In this document: one piece after another, positions 1 through 45,082 of the stretch
Layout of the letters: each line of letters starts with the position of its first letter
How positions within the stretch are numbered: the first letter of the stretch is position 1
From: Streptomyces dengpaensis
GTDB lineage: Bacteria > Actinomycetota > Actinomycetes > Streptomycetales > Streptomycetaceae
Assembly: GCF_002946835.1 (NCBI RefSeq)
Contig: NZ_CP026653.1
Location: 1 to 64,000, forward strand
Reading direction: 5' to 3'
Length of the DNA: 64,000 bases
The notes under the pieces: generated by a model
The model's database searches: none
Told to the model about the DNA's origin: nothing
What the model saw: only the letters and a program-made list of their open reading frames with translations
Program-made: the position numbers and the translations under genes

Positions 1-163
1 CCCGCGGAGCGGGATATGCCCCGGCAAGCCGGGGCATAGAGCGCGAATTGCGCAAGCGCAATTCGAATTCCGGCGCAAGCGCCGGAATGGAATTCCGTAA
101 ACGGAATTCCGAAAGGAAGTCAATTCGCGCAAGCGCGAATTGAGGGCACCCGCGCAAGCGCGG
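1..163. repeat. Left telomere: array of seven palindromes
   Basis: The first 13 nt fold as CCCGC-GGA-GCGGG, the palindrome that opens archetypal Streptomyces telomeres. Six more palindromes follow at 15-38, 45-64, 67-88, 89-110, 120-143 and 150-163. Each is a perfect inverted repeat around a central AA, with arms of 6 to 11 bp. In Streptomyces such arrays form the 3' single-strand overhang that is patched with a terminal protein. That the window begins exactly at palindrome I means base 1 is probably the physical end of a linear replicon. Palindromes II to VII do not look like the archetypal set, so this may be a divergent telomere type. Confidence 0.85.
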
Positions 164-190
164 TCGCCGCGGCTGGCAACAGGGGAAGGT

Positions 191-482
191 GCATCACGCG
201 CGGGCCTGTGTAGCTCCTGGGGTTCTAGGCCACCACCCCCGCAACGGCTGTGACGGATCGTCGGCCCGACAAGTGCCGGCCCCATCGCAGTGACGGGCTC
301 CGCTTACGCTCCACCCGAACCCCTCCCCTGCTCTCAACTGCCCGAACGGTCAATCTGACGACACCCCGTCAGCATACACTCTGACCCGGCGTCATGGGGG
401 AGAATCAGCCAAGTGTCATCCGGGAGGGCGAACCTGTCGCAAGGGTGATGCATCACAGGGGCTGGCTGTGTAGAGTCTGGGG
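191..482. repeat. Subtelomeric direct repeat pair and leader of the terminal helicase gene
   Basis: Two imperfect copies of a 32-33 bp unit occur at 191-222 and 450-482. They share GCATCAC, then CTGTGTAG, then CTGGGG. The second copy ends about 90 bp before the helicase start, and its TAGAGT could be a -10 element, so the unit may be a duplicated promoter or a binding site near the telomere. The rest of 164-570 shows no convincing gene. Confidence 0.45.
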
Positions 483-570: not shown

Positions 571-2994
571 ATGGCCGTGAAACTGCGTGAACACCAGATT
601 GAGGCCGTTGCCGCCATTGTGCGCGGCCTCGATATCCCGCCGGGTGGAATCCCCGCCAATGGTCTGCGCGGTCAGGTGCACGCCGCGTGCGGGACGGGAA
701 AGACCATCATCGCGGCTTCGGCGGCAAAGCGGCTCGCACCCAAGGGGCGCATTCTCGTTCTGGTGCCGACGCTGGATTTGCTGAGCCAGACGGTTCAGGC
801 GTGGAATGCGGCCGGGCACAAGGGGCCTGCGGTCGCGGTGTGCTCGCTCCAGGACGACCCGGAATTGTGGGCGCTGAAAGTCCGGTCCACCACCAACCCC
901 GTGCAATTGGCGCTGTGGCACGGCACCGGGCAGGTCATCATCTTCGCCACGTACGCCAGCCTCGGGGTCCTGGCGGAGGCCTTCGAGGGCGTGTACGGGC
1001 AGAAGCTCGCTGCGATGGACCTGGTGTGTGTCGATGAGGCGCACCGGACCAGCGGTTCGATGGGTAAGGCCTGGGCGGCCGTGCACGACCAGGACGTCAT
1101 CCCGGCGGCGCGCCGGCTGTATCTGACGGCGACGCCGCGGATCTGGCAGGAGCGGCCCCCGAACTGGGAGGTTGCCGAGGGCGTGCGGGACCCGCTGCCG
1201 CAGGAGATGGCGGCCTCCATGGACGATGAGGAAGTCTTCGGGCCCGTCCTGTACAAGCTGTCGCTGGCGTCGGCCGTGTCCAGGGGGCTGCTGGCGCGGT
1301 ATCAGATCATCGTGCTGGAGCTGCAGGACCCGGTCGTCACGCCTGAGCGGCTGATGGGCGAGGACCGGCGCAGCGAGGAGGTGCGCGGGCAGCGCCTCGG
1401 GGCGCTCCAGGCGGCGCTCCTGCACACCATGGCCAGGCATTCCTTGCAGACGTGCATCACCTTCCACCACCGGACCATAGAGGCTCAGGCTTACGCGGAG
1501 GGCCTGGAGCGCGTGGCGGCCCGGTTGCACGAGGATCAGCCGGAGCGGTACCCGGCGGAGATCTGGGCTGACTGGCTGTGCGGGGAGCACGTGCCTGAGC
1601 GCCGGCGGGGAGTTCTGGGCAAGTTCGGGTCTACGGCGCTGCGTGCGATTCTCTCGAATTGCCGCGTATTGGGTGAGGGCGTTGATATTCGCGCCGTGGA
1701 TTCCGTGGCCCTTTTGGATCCCAAGGGAGCGCCGCACGATATCGTGCAGGCCATTGGGCGCGCTCTTCGGCAGAAGCCCGGAGAGGGCAAGTTGGCTTCT
1801 CTGATTGTGCCGATTTTCTTGCAGCCGGGAGAAGAGCCCGAGGATATGTTCACCTCCGGGTCTTACCGCCCTCTGGTGAGGGTTCTCGAAGGTCTTCGGG
1901 CTCACGATGAAGAGGCCGTGGAGCTGTTGGCGATCCCCCAGGAGCCTCAGAAGGCCATGGTGGAGCCGTCGACGAACATCGGCACGGCGCCCGAGAAGGG
2001 TGAGGAAGAATCGCGTCTGCTGCTTCGTTTTGCGGCTCCGCGTGACCCGGTGATGGTCGCGGACTGGGTTTCCTTCAACGTCATCGACACGGAGCGGCAG
2101 GACTGGGCGAGGGGCTGGCAGGCGCTCAAGAACTTCTCGGAGCGCGAGCTTCATGCCCGCGTGCCCTATGAACACCGGGAGGGGATGTTTCCGCTGGGGA
2201 CATGGGTGTCGGAACAGCGACGGGCGTACGGGGCCGGGCAGATGACCGGCAAGCGGGCGCAGCGGCTGGAGAAGCTGGGCATGGTCTGGTCGGTCGCCGA
2301 TGAGCGGTTCCAGGAGAACCTGGCGGCGGCCCGGGTGTACTACGAAGACCACTGGACCCTCTGTGCTCCGAGGTCCGCCGTGGCCCTGGACAAGCCGGTA
2401 GGACAGTGGCTCTCCAATTTGCGGCGGCCGGGTGCGCTCGCCGACAAGCCGGAGTGGGAGGCCGCGCTCCTGGCGGTCGATGAGGACTGGAACCCGGAGT
2501 GGCCGGCGGAGTGGCAGAGGCATTTCGCCGCGCTGCGCGAGCTGGTGCGTGACGAGGACGGCCCGGCGGAGGTTCTGCCGGGGTTCACGGTCCACGGGAT
2601 GGATGTGGGGAAGTGGCTGGCCCGGCAGCAAAAGCCCGAGGTGTGGGCGGACCTGGCGGAGGGTCAGCGCGAGCGCCTGGAGGGCGTCGGCGTCGTCCCG
2701 CTGGCCCCGGCCCCGGCTGCGGTGGAGCCGGTCGTGTCCGCGGAGCCGTCCACGGCGCCCGTGAGCGCATTCGAGAGGGGCGTTGCGGCCCTGGTGCAGT
2801 ACAAGGCGCGTACGGGGTCTGTGACGGTCCCTAGGGCCCATGTAGAGGCGTTGCCGGACGGGTCGGAGGTGAAGCTGGGGGTGTTCCTCAGCAACAGTAA
2901 GAGCCGTCGGGCCAAGCTGACCGTCGACAAGCTGCGTGCGCTGGCCGGCCTTGGGCTGGAGTGGGCGGCTGCGGTAGAGGAAGGCGTCGCGTGA
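571..2994 (+). CDS. Telomere-proximal superfamily II DEAD/DEAH helicase with helicase-associated (HA) repeats
   Basis: This 807-aa protein has a Walker A GTGKT near residues 41-45, DEAH near 155-158, a TAT motif near 185 and a motif VI region (QAIGRALRQ) near 392-400. The C-terminal half contains W-rich repeats resembling the helicase-associated (HA) domain. ATG 571 was chosen over the in-frame ATG 394 because AAAAGGAG lies just upstream of it. Helicase genes of this kind lie next to telomeres in many Streptomyces linear replicons; ttrA, implicated in transfer from chromosome ends, is the best known. Equivalence to ttrA is inferred from position and domain order only. The next gene is coupled by TGATG. 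Confidence 0.85.
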   Translation: MAVKLREHQIEAVAAIVRGLDIPPGGIPANGLRGQVHAACGTGKTIIAASAAKRLAPKGRILVLVPTLDLLSQTVQAWNAAGHKGPAVAVCSLQDDPELWALKVRSTTNPVQLALWHGTGQVIIFATYASLGVLAEAFEGVYGQKLAAMDLVCVDEAHRTSGSMGKAWAAVHDQDVIPAARRLYLTATPRIWQERPPNWEVAEGVRDPLPQEMAASMDDEEVFGPVLYKLSLASAVSRGLLARYQIIVLELQDPVVTPERLMGEDRRSEEVRGQRLGALQAALLHTMARHSLQTCITFHHRTIEAQAYAEGLERVAARLHEDQPERYPAEIWADWLCGEHVPERRRGVLGKFGSTALRAILSNCRVLGEGVDIRAVDSVALLDPKGAPHDIVQAIGRALRQKPGEGKLASLIVPIFLQPGEEPEDMFTSGSYRPLVRVLEGLRAHDEEAVELLAIPQEPQKAMVEPSTNIGTAPEKGEEESRLLLRFAAPRDPVMVADWVSFNVIDTERQDWARGWQALKNFSERELHARVPYEHREGMFPLGTWVSEQRRAYGAGQMTGKRAQRLEKLGMVWSVADERFQENLAAARVYYEDHWTLCAPRSAVALDKPVGQWLSNLRRPGALADKPEWEAALLAVDEDWNPEWPAEWQRHFAALRELVRDEDGPAEVLPGFTVHGMDVGKWLARQQKPEVWADLAEGQRERLEGVGVVPLAPAPAAVEPVVSAEPSTAPVSAFERGVAALVQYKARTGSVTVPRAHVEALPDGSEVKLGVFLSNSKSRRAKLTVDKLRALAGLGLEWAAAVEEGVA

Positions 2995-16356: not shown

Positions 16357-16498
16357 GGCCGGTCCTCCCCTGTGATCGATCTACGGCTGAACGACGCTAC
16401 CCATCCGGCGGCCGCGGTAGTGCGGCTTCGCCGTCAGAGCTCATGCGCTGAGGATGGATCAGGCCAGGTCGGCGGTCTCGGTGGAGCCGTGCCTCGTG

Positions 16499-16757
16499 CG
16501 CGCGCAGCGCGCTCCTTTGCCCCGCAGGGGCGGGCCCAGGCGCGTAGCGCCTTTTGAAGGGCCCGGCGCGTAGCGCCCCGCCCGGAGGGCGGGAAGTACG
16601 GCCTGTGCCCGAAGGGCACTTCAATGGGCCGGTTTCCTTTTCTGGTCGCCCGTGGCCGAAGGCCACTTCAGGGGCGGCCCGGCCCGCAGGGCCGTCCAAT
16701 ACGCGCGTGCTGGGGCTTGGCGGCCAGGAGTCGGCTGCCAAGCCCCGGCACACGCGT
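16499..16757. repeat. Array of short hairpins with GNA triloops
   Basis: Stem-loops occur at 16499-16512, 16519-16531, 16539-16551, 16565-16577, 16577-16593, 16605-16619, 16652-16666 and 16681-16693. Their central triplets are GCA, GCA, GTA, GTA, GGA, GAA, GAA and GCA, so the loops are of GNA type. The array ends in a larger inverted repeat with 21-nt arms at 16701-16721 and 16737-16757 (two mismatches), a plausible terminator for the gene at 16763. GNA-closed hairpins are also how telomeric palindromes of linear Streptomyces replicons fold. The rest of 16357-16762 has no credible gene. Confidence 0.7.
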
Positions 16758-16762
16758 CATGG

Positions 16763-17107
16763 TCATCTGGCCGGCGTGTGGCGCTTGCGTTGCAGGGCGG
16801 CGTGGCGGTAGCCGACGCAGGTGGCAAACGCTCCGCTGTCGATGTCCTGTTCAACCGCCTGCTGCAGCAGCTGCACGGCCTGGGGCCCGCTGGTCACGTA
16901 GCCGAGGTGACGCAGTCCGTGGGGGTCCAGGCAGAGGCTCACCTCCGTGAGCCCGCCGCGGTAGAACAGCGGGTCGAGGTCGAGCCTGCCGGCCAGGACC
17001 GGCGAGCCGAACTCCTCCAGGCCGACGTCGCAGAACACCTCTCGTACGTCCTGCATGTCGTTGTGCGTGGCGTTGTTCGGGAATGCCTGGATGGTGTAGG
17101 CCGTCAT
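16763..17107 (-). CDS. Hypothetical protein between two hairpin elements
   Basis: This 114-aa protein (MTAYTIQAFPNNATHNDMQD) starts at ATG 17107 behind a good AGGGAGG site. It lies between the hairpin array downstream and the large cruciform element upstream (17137-17386). It contains acidic and hydrophobic stretches (VREVFCDVGLEEFG, LLQQAVEQDI) and no motif I know. If the cruciform is transcribed it would form this gene's 5' leader. Confidence 0.7.
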   Translation of the reverse strand: MTAYTIQAFPNNATHNDMQDVREVFCDVGLEEFGSPVLAGRLDLDPLFYRGGLTEVSLCLDPHGLRHLGYVTSGPQAVQLLQQAVEQDIDSGAFATCVGYRHAALQRKRHTPAR

Positions 17108-17136
17108 GGCTGCCTCCCTGGGGGTTCCCGCGGATG

Positions 17137-17386
17137 CGGGGTGTGGGGGAAGCGGGACACAGCGGGTGCGGGTGCTGAAGTCCCCGGTGCGCGAGCGAAA
17201 GCGAGCAGGGGACTTCACTCCTGGCCGGTGCGCGAGCGTCAGCGAGCAGGCCAGGAGCGGTCCGCGCTTGCGCGGACTGGATTGCGGTGAACGCGTCCGA
17301 AGGACGCCCGCAATCCACCCGCAGGGCCGCCCGCGGCCCGAAGGGCGGCACCCGCACCCGCTGTGTCAGGCTGCCCCCACACCCCG
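17137..17386. repeat. Large cruciform: 39-nt outer stem enclosing five hairpins
   Basis: Outer arms 17137-17175 and 17348-17386 match at 36 of 39 positions. Inside lie stems at 17176-17185/17208-17217, 17218-17226/17249-17257, 17260-17277, 17279-17316 (with an inner GAA-closed stem) and 17324-17339. The first two inner hairpins have entirely different stems but almost the same 22-nt loop, differing at two bases; both loops contain GCGAGC twice. It could be a structured RNA leader for the gene at 16763-17107 or a DNA-level structure such as a replication, recombination or transfer site. Confidence 0.8.
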
Positions 17387-17460
17387 AAAAACTGCTGGCG
17401 AGCAGCCCTCGGACGATACCTACTCGAACCAGCGTCGTTGACCGGTGTGACCCCCGAGCC

Positions 17461-17497
17461 GGGCCCCAGGGATGTCATCGCTGATTCCCTGGGGCCC
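17461..17497 (-). terminator. Terminator hairpin after the FtsK-like operon
   Basis: Arms GGGCCCCAGGGA (17461-17472) and TCCCTGGGGCCC (17486-17497) form a perfect 12-bp stem. It starts about 20 nt beyond the stop of the leftward gene at 17517, the place expected for its terminator. Confidence 0.75.
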
Positions 17498-17516
17498 GTG
17501 GTCTGTCCGGGCCGGG

Positions 17517-18347
17517 TCAGATCTCCCCGGCCGCCGTGGCGGTGACCCACGCGGCGGCTTCGGCGTCAGTCAAGAACAGCACCTGCGTCTGGTCGGCCGT
17601 GAAGCCCTGCACGGCATGGAAGCGCCCGCGGTGCGTGCTGGCCTTCGGGGCGGGGCCGATGTGCGGGGCGAGGCGGGTGAAGGTGCTGGTGGGAACTCGC
17701 CCCAGGAGCACGGTGGAGAACTGCTCGTGCCCTCCCGGGCCAAGGGTGCCGGCGGTGGGGTAGCCGTCGAAGAGGACGTGGATGCGTGCCTGGCGGCCCG
17801 CGAAGAGGAGCTCGTGGAGGGCGTCGACGGCCGGGGACGTCTTCGGGTCGTCCTCCTGGCGGACCGTGTCCCAGTGGCGGGTGAGCTTGCGCAGGGTGTG
17901 GTCGGCTCCCTCGAACACCACCGCCAGGCGCGGCAGGTCGTCGGCGTCACCGTGCTGGTCGGCGTGGTCGATACGGCGCTTGAGTTCGGCCGCGAGTGCG
18001 ACCAGGGCGTCGTGGATGTCGGCGAGGTCGGCGCGGTACGTCACCGCCGGCAGTCCCTTCGCCCACCGGTGGGAGACCCGCTTGCGGTCGAGGACCAGGG
18101 CGTGGGCGCCGTGGCGCAGGAGCTGGGCGGTGAGGGTGCGCAGGAGGGTCGTGGTGCCGCCGCCACCGGCGGTGCAGGCCAGGACGTGCGGCGATTCGGT
18201 GTCCAGGTCGACGGACACCGGCTGCCCGTCGGTGCCGAGACCGATGAGGACCTCGGAGGCGGGCAGCGTCTGAAGCCGCTCGCGGATGCCGGGGTCGGTC
18301 AGGCGCAGCAGGTCGGGGAGTGTGGTCTTCGCGGTCGTCTTGAACAT
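17517..18347 (-). CDS. Truncated FtsK/SpoIIIE-like paralogue with degenerate Walker A
   Basis: This 276-aa protein aligns by eye with the ATPase part of the next gene: SPHVLACTAGGGG against SPHILVNASTGGGKS, RVSHRWAKGLPAVTY against RISHPWANGIPGVTY, and QVLFLTDAEA against QVLFFTDAEA. The catalytic P-loop Lys is replaced by Thr (GGGGTT, residues 61-66), so ATP hydrolysis is doubtful. An acidic residue remains at the Walker B position (VVFEGAD). It lacks the N-terminal domain and the C-terminal HTH-like part of its neighbour. It may be a regulatory subunit of mixed rings or a decaying duplicate. Confidence 0.75.
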   Translation of the reverse strand: MFKTTAKTTLPDLLRLTDPGIRERLQTLPASEVLIGLGTDGQPVSVDLDTESPHVLACTAGGGGTTTLLRTLTAQLLRHGAHALVLDRKRVSHRWAKGLPAVTYRADLADIHDALVALAAELKRRIDHADQHGDADDLPRLAVVFEGADHTLRKLTRHWDTVRQEDDPKTSPAVDALHELLFAGRQARIHVLFDGYPTAGTLGPGGHEQFSTVLLGRVPTSTFTRLAPHIGPAPKASTHRGRFHAVQGFTADQTQVLFLTDAEAAAWVTATAAGEI

Positions 18348-18461
18348 GGTGCGTGTTCCTTTTCTGTGCGGTGCCTGGTGAACCGGGTGTTCTCCAGGCG
18401 GGGATCAGTGGTGGCCGGGGCCAGACAGCCGGGCCGCGGACGTCGGCGGCCTGCGGGGCTG

Positions 18462-20360
18462 TCAGTCCAGGTCGGTGGAACCGACGGCAGAGCGGGGCCG
18501 GTTGCGTGCCCAGCGCTTCAGATCGCCGACCCGGTAGAGGAGTTCGGCGCCGCGCTTGCCCGCCGGGGCCGGGAAGCTGCGGTCGTTGGCACGGGCGTAG
18601 CGCAGGGCGGCGACGGTGATCTCCGGCAGGTGCTCTTCGTGGGCCTGCCGCAGTCCCACCGCCTGGTCGTTGACCGGGGCCGGATTCGCCGGCGGGGTTG
18701 CCGTTGCGGTGATGTCGGCCGGGTCGGCGGCGGTAGCCCGCTGCGCGGGCAGGGCGTCCTGTGTCGGCGCCTCCGGGCCGGTGGAGGAAGGCTGCGTCTG
18801 GGTGGCCTGCGGGTCCTCAGCGGGCCCCGGGAGCTGCACAGGGGCAGGCGTCGCCGGGACGGCGGGCGTCTTCTTCCCCCGGGACGGCGGTCGGCTGGTG
18901 GCCCACTCGCGGGCTTCGGCGTCGGTGAAGAACAGCACCTGCGTCTCCCGGGCGGTGCCGCCGATGACGACCTGGGCACGGCCGGGGTGCTTGGTGGACT
19001 TCGGCGCCGGGTGGACCTCGGGGGCGAGCATGCGCCAGGCGTTCACGCTGTAGCGGGCGAGGATGCGGGTGGCAAACTGCTCGCGAACCTCCGGGCCTCC
19101 CAGAGCGCGGGCGGTGGCGGACTGGGCGACCAGGAGCACGTGCATGCGGACCTGGCGGCCCATGTAGAGGATCTCGTTGAGCGCGTCGATGGCCGGGGAG
19201 ACCTTCGGGTCGCCAGACTCACGGATCCGCTCCCAGTAGCGCGCCAGCTGCTTCATCGTGGCGTTGACCTCTTCGAGGAGGATCAGCAGCCGCGGGCCGA
19301 TGGCGTCCGGGTCGGCGCCGATGCCGAGTTCGTCGGCGACGCGCACCCGGCGCCGGCCTTCCATGCCGAGCTCGATCAGGGCGTCGTGGATGTCGGCGAT
19401 GTCGCGGCAGTAGGTAACGCCGGGTATGCCGTTCGCCCACGGGTGGGAAATCCGCTTGGTGTCGAGGATGTACACGAGCGAGCCGTGGCGGAGCATCTGG
19501 CAGGCGATGCAGCACAGGGTCACCGACTTGCCGCCACCCGTGCTCGCGTTGACCAGGATGTGCGGCGATTCGGCGTCCAGGTCCACGCTGACGGTCTTGC
19601 CGCCGGTGCCGATGCCGATGACCGGCGCGGACTCCGGGGCTTTCGCGACCAGGTCGCGTATGGACGCGTCCTTGAAGGCGGCCTTCTTCGGGGGCTTGCG
19701 GGTCTTCTTCACCAGCAGGTGCGGCTTGCGTCCGGCCGGGTTCCAGGAGAACGTCACGCCCTCCAGGGCGAGTTTCTGGGTGATGAGGTCGGCGACCAGG
19801 TCGCGGGAGAACCGCAGGTGCACCGGCAGGTCGACGCGTATCTGCGCGTCGTCGTCGCTGAAGTTCTTCGGCACGTGGAGGTAGCGGCGCGGGTCGGTCT
19901 GCTCCGCGATCCCCAGCGGCTGCGCGAGCGCCAGGTGCAGCGGCGTCACCCACTCGCGCATCAGCTCCCGCCGCTCACGGGTCAGCAGCCCGTATGCCAG
20001 ACCGCCGACGGCCGCGGCGGAGGCCGCGCCGATCCCGCCCGGCTGGAGCGTCTGGAGGGTGGCGTCCCGGTGCTCCCACCAGAACCGGGCGGTCTCCTGG
20101 TTCTCCCACGTCCACCAGCCGCCCGAGCCGGCCGCGCTGAGGAAGGTCATCCGGAGGGCGAGGCGCTGCCACCCGGCCCGGTACGACGAACGGGCCACAC
20201 TGCCTTCGACCTTCGGCAGGACGCGGGTACCGGGGTGCCAGAACGTGGCGTCGGTCCGCTTCACACCGTCCATGTCCCGGCCGCCCAGGAACCGGCCGAT
20301 GCCGAACGCGAGGGCTTCGGTGGTCTCCTCAACCTGCCTGTCGAACTTCGTCTGCGCCAT
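18462..20360 (-). CDS. FtsK/SpoIIIE-type DNA translocase (plasmid transfer type)
   Basis: This 632-aa protein has Walker A NASTGGGKSV (271-280), Walker B LLILLEEVN (about 358-366) and a hydrophobic segment near 105-125. The C-terminus has an MerR/AlpA-like DNA-binding appearance (EITVAALRYARANDR, then YRVGDLKRWARNR). This layout matches FtsK-domain transfer proteins of actinobacterial plasmids and integrative elements. ATG 20360 has GAAGGG upstream; the longer in-frame start is less likely. It precedes the truncated paralogue by 114 nt and is probably co-transcribed with it. A role in conjugative dsDNA transfer is inferred. Confidence 0.8.
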   Translation of the reverse strand: MAQTKFDRQVEETTEALAFGIGRFLGGRDMDGVKRTDATFWHPGTRVLPKVEGSVARSSYRAGWQRLALRMTFLSAAGSGGWWTWENQETARFWWEHRDATLQTLQPGGIGAASAAAVGGLAYGLLTRERRELMREWVTPLHLALAQPLGIAEQTDPRRYLHVPKNFSDDDAQIRVDLPVHLRFSRDLVADLITQKLALEGVTFSWNPAGRKPHLLVKKTRKPPKKAAFKDASIRDLVAKAPESAPVIGIGTGGKTVSVDLDAESPHILVNASTGGGKSVTLCCIACQMLRHGSLVYILDTKRISHPWANGIPGVTYCRDIADIHDALIELGMEGRRRVRVADELGIGADPDAIGPRLLILLEEVNATMKQLARYWERIRESGDPKVSPAIDALNEILYMGRQVRMHVLLVAQSATARALGGPEVREQFATRILARYSVNAWRMLAPEVHPAPKSTKHPGRAQVVIGGTARETQVLFFTDAEAREWATSRPPSRGKKTPAVPATPAPVQLPGPAEDPQATQTQPSSTGPEAPTQDALPAQRATAADPADITATATPPANPAPVNDQAVGLRQAHEEHLPEITVAALRYARANDRSFPAPAGKRGAELLYRVGDLKRWARNRPRSAVGSTDLD

Positions 20361-20611
20361 GCCGTCCAACGCCCTTCGTACCGGGTGTGCGTAAGGCGCG
20401 ACGGTGCCGCCTGAAGCGGACACCCACGCCGGACGGCAACGCTAAAACGGTTCTCCTGTGGATAAAGTCCGCAAACAGGGCGGGAAGATTTAGATATTTT
20501 TCGACGCGAAAGCAGGCAAACCGATTGGGGGATTACGCCGGGCCCCGGATCGCGAGACGCTGCCCGCACGTCCGCGCGGATCCGGCCCCGCCGGCCGCCC
20601 CGTTCTCCAGA

Positions 20612-35572: not shown

Positions 35573-37516
35573 TCAGCGGCCACGGCCCGGCCCACTGCCC
35601 TGGTCGGGCCGGGGCCTGTGCTGCTGCTGGTCGGCGGGACCGGCCGCGTCCGCGGCAGGCTGCTCCGACAGCTCGGGCTGCCCGGAGTGCTTGCGCTGCT
35701 GTTCGGCGACGGCGCGGCCACGGGCGTCGGACTCGAGCTTGAGGGCGGCGATCCGGGCGAGGTACGTCGGCGAGCTCATCCACGTCTCCGAGTCGGTCGT
35801 GCGGCCTTCCAGTGGGTCGGTCGTGCGGCCCTCCAGCAACTCGGGCATCGCGGCTTGCTGGTGGGCCTGGATCGCGTCGGCCCGCTGTGCCGGGGTGAGG
35901 GCGGCGTCCCGGCCCGGGTGGTCGACGGCGTGCGGCGCGGCCGCCTCCTGGTCGTGGTTTTGGTTGTGGTCGTCGGTGTGCCCGGTGGCCGATGCGGGCG
36001 CGGCGGGGGCTTCGTCCCGCGCCGGGGGTGCGGTGCGGGCGGCGCGGATCGCGTTCCGCAGGGCGAGGCTGGCGACCCTGGCCCGCTCGTACCTGCTCGA
36101 CTCCCGGGGTGGCATGCCGTCGGTCCCGGCGATCCACCACCGGATGGGCCAGGCGAAGTCGGCCGTGTAGGAGAGCTGGTCCGGCGACGGGGCCCGCCGG
36201 CCCTTCTGGGGCACGGTGAGCTGACGGCTGTGGCGGGTCAGGGCCAGGTCGGCGATGGAGTCGTCCAGGCCGGGCTCGAATGCGCGGCCGCGCAGGGTCT
36301 CCAGGAGGTGTCGGCGGGCTTCGGCCAGGACGTGGCGGCGGGCGAAGGTGCGGCGCACGGTGAAGACGATCGCGGCGACGTCGACGGCGGCGAGCGCGGT
36401 GTCCACCCGCGGGCTCACCCGGGCCCGGATCGCCGCACCGGCCGCCCGGCACCGCTCCAGGAGCCCTTCGACCATCTGTTTGCCGAAGCGTAGGAGCGCG
36501 GACGCGCGCCACCACGCCAGCAGCTGCGCCAGGGGGCGCGGGGTCTTCTTGTCCGGGCGGGTCTCCTGCGCCGCCCACCAGCCGAGTCCGTGGCGGGCAC
36601 GTTCGTCGGGCAGCCGCCCGTGCTTGGCGACGTACCGGGCGGTGAGGCCCTCCAGTTCGTCCTCGATCCGTCGGCGGCGGGTGGAGGACCAGTCGATGAG
36701 TTCCTGGTCCACGCCGGCTATTTCCATGACCGGGCGCAGTCCCGGCGTCACCTCGCGCGGCACGGTCGCCAGCCCCAGTTCCTCGCACACCTCGGTGGTC
36801 ATGGCGAGCGTGTACAGCGTCCCGGCCGCCACCACGTGCTGATAGAGGCGGACCGTGTCTATCGCGTACCAGGAGCCGTCCGGGCGCTGCACGCGGTTCA
36901 GGATCAGGCAGTGCTCATGGAGCAGGGGGAATCCGTCCCGGTTGTCGAAGTGACGGAACGCGGCAACGACCAGGGCGGGGGCCTTGGCGCGCTGGCGGCC
37001 GGAGGACCACCGGGTCTCCGCGACCTCATCCTCCAGCCAGCGCAGCACGGTGGCGATGGCCCGCTCATGCGCCCGCTCGATGACCTGCCGGGTGTGGTCG
37101 TCTCCCAGCGCCCACAGCACGATCAGGGACGCCTGCGCCCGGAAGACGAACTCGACAGCGAGCAGTGGGGTCTGCCCGCGCTGCTCGATCTCTTCGATCG
37201 GCTGCCCGAGGACGGTGGCCAGCCGTGCCGTCTCCGGGCTGGCGCCGTCGTCCAGGAGCTTGCGCTCCATGCGGTCGGCGTCCGGATGCCGGAGCTCGCC
37301 GTACATCAGCTCCAGCTGCCGTTCCGTCACGACCGAACCCGCGGTGAGACCGAGAGCAGCGAGCCCCCGCCCCATCCACACCCCGGGCGGGAGCCCGGCC
37401 ATCTCCTGAGCGTCCTTCAGCGCCTGGCGGGCCGGACGGCGGCCGTCGCCGAAGGCCACCCCACGCACGAAGTACCGCCACGCGTTCCGCCTTTGAACCT
37501 TCGCAACACTGAGCAT
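35573..37516 (-). CDS. MobF-type (TrwC-like) relaxase lacking the helicase domain
   Basis: This 647-aa protein has the three-His metal site of TrwC relaxases, FRHFDNRDGFPLLHEHCLIL (His189, His200, His202), and an N-terminal candidate catalytic Tyr in RNAWRYFVRGV (Tyr15). Relaxases nick oriT and lead single-stranded DNA into the recipient. MobF proteins normally carry a C-terminal helicase and are about 1000 residues or more. Here the C-terminus is a disordered Glu/Pro/Gln-rich tail with no Walker motifs. ATG 37516 gives the family-like MLSVAKV; a GTG at 37531 is possible. The ribosome binding site is poor. Confidence 0.8.
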   Translation of the reverse strand: MLSVAKVQRRNAWRYFVRGVAFGDGRRPARQALKDAQEMAGLPPGVWMGRGLAALGLTAGSVVTERQLELMYGELRHPDADRMERKLLDDGASPETARLATVLGQPIEEIEQRGQTPLLAVEFVFRAQASLIVLWALGDDHTRQVIERAHERAIATVLRWLEDEVAETRWSSGRQRAKAPALVVAAFRHFDNRDGFPLLHEHCLILNRVQRPDGSWYAIDTVRLYQHVVAAGTLYTLAMTTEVCEELGLATVPREVTPGLRPVMEIAGVDQELIDWSSTRRRRIEDELEGLTARYVAKHGRLPDERARHGLGWWAAQETRPDKKTPRPLAQLLAWWRASALLRFGKQMVEGLLERCRAAGAAIRARVSPRVDTALAAVDVAAIVFTVRRTFARRHVLAEARRHLLETLRGRAFEPGLDDSIADLALTRHSRQLTVPQKGRRAPSPDQLSYTADFAWPIRWWIAGTDGMPPRESSRYERARVASLALRNAIRAARTAPPARDEAPAAPASATGHTDDHNQNHDQEAAAPHAVDHPGRDAALTPAQRADAIQAHQQAAMPELLEGRTTDPLEGRTTDSETWMSSPTYLARIAALKLESDARGRAVAEQQRKHSGQPELSEQPAADAAGPADQQQHRPRPDQGSGPGRGR

Positions 37517-43825: not shown

Positions 43826-45082
43826 TCAGCTGGCAGGGCGGCCTGGCATGAGGAGGTCGTCGAACTGCTGGAATTTCTCTTCGCGGGTGCCGGTGACGGT
43901 CGCGTGCATCACCTGGGCTGGCTGGTTGGGGTCGGGTCCGGCCTTGCGTGAGAACACCGCCGCGCACAGCGGCTGTGCGACCCCGGGGAACACGCGGGTC
44001 GGCACGGTCGGCTGCATCCCCTCCGGTGTCAGTTCGATGACCAGTCCCTGGTCGGCGGTCCGGCGCAGTGCGGCGCGCATGCCGTCGAAGGCTTGGGAGT
44101 CGAGCCAGGCGGCGGGGGAGAGGAAGGCGACGACGCCGGTGTGCAGGCGGGTTTCGAAGACACGCCACAGAGCCCAGCGCCAGAAGTAGACGTGCAGGTT
44201 GGAAAGGGCGTACTCCAGACGGCCCCGCCCGGGATAGCGGAACTCGTCGAGGCTGGGCCGCCACAGTTCGTCCGCGGCTCGTGCCTGGCCCCGGCGGGGC
44301 CTGCGGGCCTCGATCCAGGGGGCGGCTCCTTTGGCCTTGTCCTTGTACGGGGGGTTGCCGACGATCGCCAGCGGGCGAGGCGAGTTGAGGCGTCCCGCCA
44401 GTGCGGGAGGGACGTCTCCGGCGAGCGCGTCACCGACGATGATGTTGTTGTCGAGCCAGCCGATCGGCGGGAAGCCGCCGGCCTCCAGCCAGCACGCGGA
44501 CTTGGCGAGGTCGACAGCGACCGGGTCGGTGTCGATGCCGTAGACGCAGGAGCGCATGACGTCGGCCGTGACGGCCTGGACGGTGAGGCGGGCGGGATTG
44601 TGGGTGCCGTACAGCAGGCCGACGTAGGCGGAGGCGAGGATGCGTGCTGCGGCGATGAGGAACACTCCGCCGCCGCACGCCGGGTCCAGCACCGAAAGGT
44701 TGAGGACGTCGGCGGGGTCGTCGTCCAGGTGCAGGTCGGTGATGGTGCTCAGGGCGGCGCGGGTCAGGGGGTGGGCGATCTGGGGCGGGGTGTACCAGGT
44801 GCCGGACGCGCTGCGGGTCTCGGAGGCGAGTAACTGCTCGCGCAGGCTGCCGAGTTCCGCCGCACCCCAGGTGGTGATGCCGTCGAGGTCCTGGAGGAGC
44901 TTGCGGATCCGGTGCGCGGTGTCGACGGGCAGGTCGACGGGCCAGGGTTCGGCGAACCCGCGGGCGGCGGCGACCGTGTTCACCGCGAGCCGGATGATCT
45001 GGCGGTGGCCGTCGTCGCCGGGCGCTTCTGCCGCAAGAGATTCAAGGGTGCTTGCGGGGATGTTCGTACGGGGGCCGGCCAT
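43826..45082 (-). CDS. N6-adenine DNA methyltransferase
   Basis: This 418-aa protein has the SAM motif LDPACGGGVFLIAAARIL and the catalytic NPPY in AIVGNPPYKDKAKG, the order of gamma-class N6-adenine methylases of Eco57I/type IIG style. An LSPAAWLDSQAFDGM segment further on is common in these enzymes. No restriction domain and no specificity subunit are adjacent, so it is probably an orphan modification enzyme. It may protect incoming DNA during transfer or regulate plasmid genes. ATG 45082 is preceded by AAGGAGG-like sequence. Confidence 0.8.
   Translation of the reverse strand: MAGPRTNIPASTLESLAAEAPGDDGHRQIIRLAVNTVAAARGFAEPWPVDLPVDTAHRIRKLLQDLDGITTWGAAELGSLREQLLASETRSASGTWYTPPQIAHPLTRAALSTITDLHLDDDPADVLNLSVLDPACGGGVFLIAAARILASAYVGLLYGTHNPARLTVQAVTADVMRSCVYGIDTDPVAVDLAKSACWLEAGGFPPIGWLDNNIIVGDALAGDVPPALAGRLNSPRPLAIVGNPPYKDKAKGAAPWIEARRPRRGQARAADELWRPSLDEFRYPGRGRLEYALSNLHVYFWRWALWRVFETRLHTGVVAFLSPAAWLDSQAFDGMRAALRRTADQGLVIELTPEGMQPTVPTRVFPGVAQPLCAAVFSRKAGPDPNQPAQVMHATVTGTREEKFQQFDDLLMPGRPAS

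Follow-up and report, generated by a model that had tools for sequence, protein, structure and literature searches.

The window analyzed here, a stretch of 64,000 nucleotides read on its forward (+) strand, is the left part of a complete 92,208-bp linear plasmid of Streptomyces dengpaensis (contig NZ_CP026653.1). Its subject is a long inverted repeat that encloses five hairpins (the five-arm element) and lies beside a small gene and an array of further hairpins. The features referred to below were as follows:

1–13, + strand: left telomere start CCCGCGGAGCGGG; the same 13 nt occur inverted at the contig end
16488–16709, + strand: GNA array, 8 hairpins with GNA triloops, the conserved partner structure
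16696–16762, no strand: 30-nt inverted repeat I2, between the array and the cargo gene; not terminator-like by scan
16763–17107, − strand: cargo gene, 114 aa, function unknown
17137–17175, + strand: left half of the outer stem of the five-arm element, placed from inverted repeat I1 and relatives
17176–17217, + strand: arm 1, a stem, GGTGC/A bulge, and inner hairpin with tandem G·A and GAAA loop
17218–17257, + strand: arm 2, a different stem with the same inner motif as arm 1 and GTCA loop
17259–17277, + strand: arm 3, a hairpin with g(CTTG)c loop
17278–17316, + strand: arm 4, a stem, 5-nt bulge TGAAC, and inner hairpin with GAA triloop
17318–17347, + strand: arm 5, a hairpin with GCA/GAA internal loop
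17348–17386, + strand: right half of the outer stem, placed from inverted repeat I1
17517–18347, − strand: FtsK/TraD-like ATPase fragment or paralogue; Pfam and NCBIfam matches below cut-off, 46% identity to the next gene
18462–20423, − strand: coupling-protein-like ATPase; E 2e-12, 28% identity to a T4SS coupling protein
35573–37330, − strand: TrwC-type (MOBF) relaxase gene; PF08751, E 9.7e-53

The initial annotation, made from the sequence alone, had described a 39-nt outer stem around five hairpins. This was confirmed by the inverted repeat and by RNA and DNA folding compared with shuffled sequences. The outer arms (17137–17175 and 17348–17386) are 39 nt each and 92% complementary. The + strand of 17100–17420 folded as RNA at −224.2 kcal/mol (z −11.9), a value equaled by 0 of 100 shuffles, and with DNA parameters 17137–17386 folded at −116.2 kcal/mol versus a shuffle mean of −66.5 (sd 3.5, n = 60). 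The cruciform is genuine and far above chance. The element had also been placed just upstream of a small gene, and indeed only 29 nt separate the start codon of the gene at 16763–17107 (− strand) from the outer stem.

Arms 1 and 2 had been thought to carry a nearly identical 22-nt loop on unrelated stems. The repetition is real, being a 26-nt direct repeat at 17184 and 17225 with 92% identity, but it is not an open loop. The repeated inner motif is a GGTGC/A bulge followed by the hairpin GC-GA-GC-(GAAA or GTCA)-GC-GA-GC, in which tandem G·A pairs are possible; in most relatives the equivalent inner stem is Watson-Crick paired and usually closes with a GNA triloop. The window contained no third copy of the motif with three or fewer mismatches, and the sole further match in the whole genome had two mismatches, which is chance level (a reversed-pattern control gave 2 and 3 matches).

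A conserved fold family and its partner array

Relatives were sought by distant blastn of the window element against 72,556 plasmid records, with two of the relatives reused as queries. The window query matched 5 records and the two relatives 16 and 13. All were from Streptomyces, including one labelled [Kitasatospora] papulosa, which is Streptomyces by its taxonomy line. The same five arms were kept in 12 aligned full-length elements, except that arm 2 of locus L013 lacked the inner bulge; shortened copies were found at L046, L115, L116, and L095. In a core alignment of eight sequences, 22 of 52 pairs had two-sided compensatory change. A search of 295 genomes with one DNA sequence matched 57 genomes but gave only two matches longer than 100 nt beyond the window's own genome; therefore, a covariance model was used. 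Over 66 loci, some of which are the same DNA retrieved twice, the model gave 53 matches, 38 of them distinct. The initial annotation had allowed that no related elements might exist; this covariance search in relatives showed that they do.

In the family alignment 98.3% of the cells were paired, and 30 of 52 pairs had two-sided compensatory change. Two-sided cells numbered 252 versus 82.4 in shuffles, with 0 of 500 shuffles reaching the observed value, and sliding the alignment by 1–3 columns reduced pairing to 36–46% of cells. Because the members share ancestry, the counts of elements are not independent. These results demonstrated a conserved fold family supported by compensatory change. The earlier proposal of a constant part on freely varying stems held throughout the family for the inner motifs: GGTGC...A and GGTGAAC persist in arms whose stems covary.

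All matches with a named organism were in Streptomyces. Model R1 matched 9 of the 392 genus genomes and 8 of the 197 order genomes, the latter spanning six genera of which one had a match; the two samples overlap, each includes the window's own genome, and the strict filters drop weak matches. A pattern scan of one genome per species (84,980 species), which overlooks members departing from the pattern, gave 35 stretches. The model confirmed 22, all titled Streptomyces; the other 13 (11 non-Streptomyces and 2 Streptomyces) were discarded for want of a model match. The loop pattern also occurred in four stretches of viral contigs, none with the fold or a model match. Rfam had no match in the window at the curated score and nothing near the gathering score at E 5. 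Two loci, L109 on an IMG/VR contig and L100 on an S. griseoluteus contig, had the same element model score and the same neighbor genes; the former contig may be a phage or a mislabelled plasmid. L091 (Streptomyces sp. TRM68367, 7100–7480) carries the window's five arms at 99.6% identity; this copy is a natural truncation without the left outer arm, cargo gene, and array. L091 also lacks the 17517–20423 stretch, leaving a gap between matches to 17510 and 20615.

The closeness of the element to a GNA array had been pointed out at the outset, and comparison of homologues showed that the array is the second half of the same module. Window positions 16480–16720 contain 8 GNA hairpins, whereas 2,000 shuffles gave a mean of 0.019 and a maximum of 1. 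Perfect hairpins with five or more pairs and a GNA triloop were tallied in the 6 kb on each side of 34 elements, excluding the element itself. The element's strand had 186 to the left versus 7 to the right, and the opposite strand 48 versus 5, with 46 of the 48 at ten loci having a telomere-like left end. The array accompanies 28 of 33 elements, on the same strand and 340–1,700 bp distant. Three of the five elements without one (L092, L048, and L094) have too little left DNA to show it, and it is absent at L055 and L045. The array itself covaries: in 16 sequences 97.2% of cells were paired, with 66 two-sided cells versus 20.3 in shuffles. With the window array as query, 12 plasmid records matched (some of them near duplicates), and 11 also hold a five-arm element, on the same strand in 11 of 11; in the twelfth, NZ_CP116356, the first 14 kb gave no five-arm match. 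L122 (5183–5550) holds an array some 5 kb in from a linear plasmid's left end, with no five-arm match in the 14 kb covered. We conclude that the five-arm element and the GNA array form one two-part module on one strand.

The hairpin loops of the module fell into few types. In 33 elements, 159 of 165 loops were c(GNA)g (96), c(GNYA)g (33), or g(CNNG)c (30), and none was GNRA; the GAAA loop of window arm 1 is outside this count because its stem is too short. In the right flanks, used as a control, these three classes accounted for 18 of 673 loops. In the arrays, which were selected by GNA clusters, 178 of 182 loops were c(GNA)g or c(GNYA)g. The three classes are motifs known from very stable DNA hairpins and from Streptomyces telomeres; they appear in the titles of two papers, Yoshizawa 1997 and Nakano 2002, cited in PMC11101458 and PMC5090098. 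Work on Streptomyces telomeres describes hairpins with GNA loops (PMC4513846, PMC8743542), six telomere classes with 3–4-nt loops of which GAA, GGA, and GTA are commonest (PMC8743542), and palindromes with sheared G:A pairs that are bound by Tap (PMC4513846).

Wobble pairs in the elements were more often G·T than A·C on the + strand (71 versus 5, or 19 versus 5 without two constitutive wobble pairs), and the same bias was seen in folds made without G-U (43 versus 17). The minimum free energy (MFE) was lower on the + strand in 27 of 33 elements. A contrary sign came from the free MFE folds, with 99 G-U pairs on + versus 132 on −, and for the array neither wobble (5 to 3) nor DNA energy (−73.1 and −73.0) told the strand. 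The loops resemble those found in stable single-stranded DNA rather than those of RNA. Both the loop types and the bias toward one strand speak against the structured RNA suggested initially, which is nevertheless a possible reading.

The bracketed genes and their plasmids

The genes between array and element (cargo genes) are on the − strand and differ between plasmids. Type A plasmids have a 393-aa protein there, and a T4SS-bearing linear lineage has acidic Zn-ribbon proteins; L100, L086, and L081 share a family of 123–125 aa, L093 has a protein of 118 aa, and L010 one of 68 aa. The window's cargo protein had no match in Pfam (longer reading), PADLOC, or NCBIfam, and none of the cargo proteins submitted to these (8 proteins to PADLOC) received a name. 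One cargo protein model (pLDDT 75) had no PDB match at E 0.001; a second (pLDDT 31) was unusable. At L055, L045, and L091 no cargo gene was detected.

In spite of this diversity, 14 cargo genes at 13 loci begin 63–67 nt from the element core (the window, two at L110, L099, L092, L074, L078, L108, L094, L048, L049, L010, L107, and L093), the start codons of unannotated genes having been chosen by script. Larger distances were found for type A (169–200 nt), L100, L086, and L081 (183–184), L104 and L076 (124), and L084 (81); those at L090 and L056 were ambiguous and are outside these counts. That the element serves its left-hand gene is best shown by L110 (genome G447, contig 3), where two elements 985 bp apart each precede a different gene; at L049 the same two genes lie within one three-gene run behind a single element. 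These results show that cargo is exchanged behind a constant element whose orientation to it is also constant.

A block of genes is kept in the type A loci (L008, L009, L011, L042, L043, L044, and L052). It encodes an HTH protein, an adenylate-kinase-like protein, and the 393-aa protein, with the array between the latter two; L010 has a relative of the HTH gene close to its element. A reading of the element as part of a replication locus, drawn from this constant block, was abandoned when the element was found ahead of unrelated genes at other loci.

A link to a transfer site had been suggested for the element, and it is supported only by context: the plasmid is linear and has a TrwC-type relaxase gene, and a distant coupling-protein homologue lies beside the element. 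The two adjoining FtsK/TraD-like paralogues (17517–20423) are 46% identical. In all eight replicons with both features, most of them related type A plasmids (W01, W02, W04, W05, W06, W10, G486, and the window plasmid), the relaxase gene is on the − strand and the element on the + strand. The MobF query found nothing in W03, W07, W08, W09, W11, and W12 and also missed the window's own relaxase. The coupling-protein gene of W01 is on the + strand. Transferred strands in F and R388 have a layout that, if valid here, would make + the transferred strand. In seven replicons the element lies about 12, 13, 14, 20, 33, 55, and 57 kb along + from the relaxase gene; the window's element is on the opposite side of that gene. 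These distances of 12–57 kb and the window's arrangement give no clear support to a position in the leading region.

Among linear replicons, those with the nearer end to the left of the element are the window plasmid, L091, the T4SS lineage (L049, L110, and others), the chromosome end L056, and L010 (96 kb); NZ_CP116356 has it to the left of the array, and L044 and L045 have it to the right of the element. The left end of the window begins with CCCGCGGAGCGGG, which we take to be the archetypal telomere start. At the termini (window 1–200; the end of contig C2, L054) hairpin loops read CAAG on the 5' strand and CTTG on the opposite strand, as in arm 3. The palindromes GATCGGCTTCGCCGATC and GACGGCGTTTCACGCCGTC characterize a family of ends of linear plasmids, comprising the left ends of L049 (1–220), L110 (1–230), L104, L078, L084, and L099 and the right end of L121. 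The gene adjoining the left telomere of the window (766–2994) encodes a helicase with helicase-associated (HA) domains; similar telomere-near helicases occur in other Streptomyces replicons. The same plasmid carries an N-6 DNA methylase gene (Pfam N6_Mtase, 43826–44983).

Proposed action of the module and its alternatives

Our preferred explanation, which we hold tentatively, is a two-part single-stranded DNA module whose five-arm fold starts early expression of the cargo on the transferred strand. Of the models considered, this one accommodates the most facts. Both folds would form on the + strand once it is single-stranded, a state that conjugative transfer of that strand would most probably bring about. 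The five-arm fold would then lie directly upstream of the bracketed gene or genes, whose template is the same + strand, and RNA polymerase or a primase could start there, leftward, before a complementary strand exists. The bracketed genes would thereby be made early in the recipient and may aid establishment, while the array might mark or protect the other end of the unit. Single-stranded DNA arising in conjugation is the proposed acting form and RNA synthesis the proposed output, and the whole hints at a switch that acts while the plasmid enters a new cell.

Promoter and terminator scans bear on this proposal. Neither a sigma-70-type promoter nor a terminator was found in window positions 16400–17600, and TTGAC-N15-19-TANNNT, read leftward, was present at 0 of 33 loci between 210 nt to the left and 60 nt to the right of the core. 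The motif is of the actinobacterial type, and, as Streptomyces promoters vary, the test is a weak one. This negative result leaves a standard polymerase start unsupported and makes a classical Frpo (the folded promoter of F-like plasmids, discussed below) less likely; the preferred explanation is weakened, and explanations by priming or by an mRNA leader are strengthened. Other points against the preferred explanation are the position relative to the relaxase gene, the larger number of G-U pairs on − in free MFE folds, and the nearer end to the right at L044 and L045.

The first of these is that the folded + strand is a start for the complementary strand or a telomere-like site for a primase or Tap/Tac-like proteins, the cargo being merely adjacent. 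The lack of a promoter motif and the set of two elements suit priming, a second-strand primer site fits nearly as well as an RNA start, and the loops are those of the 3' strands of Streptomyces telomeres, whose hairpins are described as bound by Tap (PMC4513846, PMC8743542). The fixed 63–67 nt to the starts of differing genes and the doubling at L110 point instead to the gene, and we consider this explanation unlikely.

Somewhat more improbable is that the element, folded on the − strand, forms the 5' leader of the cargo mRNA and acts on translation or stability. Its place close upstream, at a constant distance from where the cargo begins, would be as expected, and the element often lies downstream of same-strand genes with no promoter motif in between. 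In a − strand RNA, however, the loops would be UNC and the tandem G·A would be T·C; the excess of G·T over A·C is on +, and the array beyond the cargo would need a separate explanation.

A recombination site (attC-like folded single-stranded DNA or a cruciform) at the ends of exchangeable cassettes would account for constant ends with differing genes inside and for the gene order permuted between L049 and L110, but the two ends are structurally unlike, and neither an empty site nor a constant recombinase was found in the annotated regions examined, which makes it very unlikely. A non-coding RNA transcribed rightward from the + strand, although in keeping with the bias to + and the strong covariation, is hardly to be expected with only 29 nt between cargo start and element in the window and with GNYA rather than GNRA tetraloops (save GAAA in window arm 1).

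A broader proposal is an undescribed class of internal, telomere-like, paired single-stranded DNA folds that bracket exchangeable genes, in which the upstream fold would be a portable RNA start without −35 and −10 and the cargo a hidden store of establishment or counter-defence functions. Taken as a whole we regard it as doubtful, while preferring the narrower start of early cargo expression. Expression from incoming plasmids before they are double-stranded is known mainly from F-like plasmids. The present family has strong evolutionary evidence, belongs to another phylum, occurs on linear and circular plasmids, and has loops that obey the rules of stable DNA hairpins. If the preferred explanation is true, single-strand movement of these Streptomyces plasmids becomes testable, and the bracketed genes become candidates for establishment or counter-defence functions.

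Comparison with known systems

Rolling-circle plasmids have single-strand origins (sso, sti) that are strand-specific folds acting on single-stranded DNA. The element is similar in that respect, but its plasmids are of 51–685 kb, linear or circular, and no rolling-circle Rep came to notice in association with it. Integron attC sites combine a folded single strand with exchangeable genes, as does the module, whose two ends are unlike and which forms no cassette row; neither an integron integrase nor a cassette row was present among the annotated features of the examined regions. Streptomyces theta plasmids of the pWTY27 type have replication iterons and a long inverted repeat bound by RepA (PMC3583192). 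They resemble the element in having a long inverted repeat near a plasmid gene; the element differs in having no described iterons and in its varying neighbor genes.

The 3' overhang folds of Streptomyces telomeres, as described in PMC4513846 and PMC8743542, are similar in their packed hairpins, GNA or 4-nt loops, and stems kept by paired changes. On one strand the element likewise has hairpins whose loops are GNA or 4 nt long, but it is not at a replicon end: it is internal (17 kb inside the window plasmid), is also present on circular plasmids, brackets genes, and differs in the order of hairpins and in their stems.

The element also resembles Frpo/ssi of F-like plasmids, Frpo being a folded single-strand promoter that starts RNA synthesis on its own strand (PMC11541004). 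Both are plasmid-borne folded DNAs upstream of small genes with the structured strand as template, and for both a use before the second strand exists is proposed. The element too forms a stable fold on the template strand of its gene. It differs in its five arms, outer stem of about 39 nt, partner array, and GNA-type loops, in that no −35/−10 was found in it, and in distances from the relaxase gene that give no clear support to a leading-region position. It was not classed as Frpo because the promoter feature, when scanned for, was not found; nevertheless, the best reading is that the module would work like Frpo. A literature search by title or abstract opening, with most subscription papers outside its scope, found no description of the element. 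Strand-specific DNA folds on plasmids are already a known kind, and it is the combination of a five-arm fold, partner array, DNA-type loops, and exchangeable cargo that appears to be new to description.
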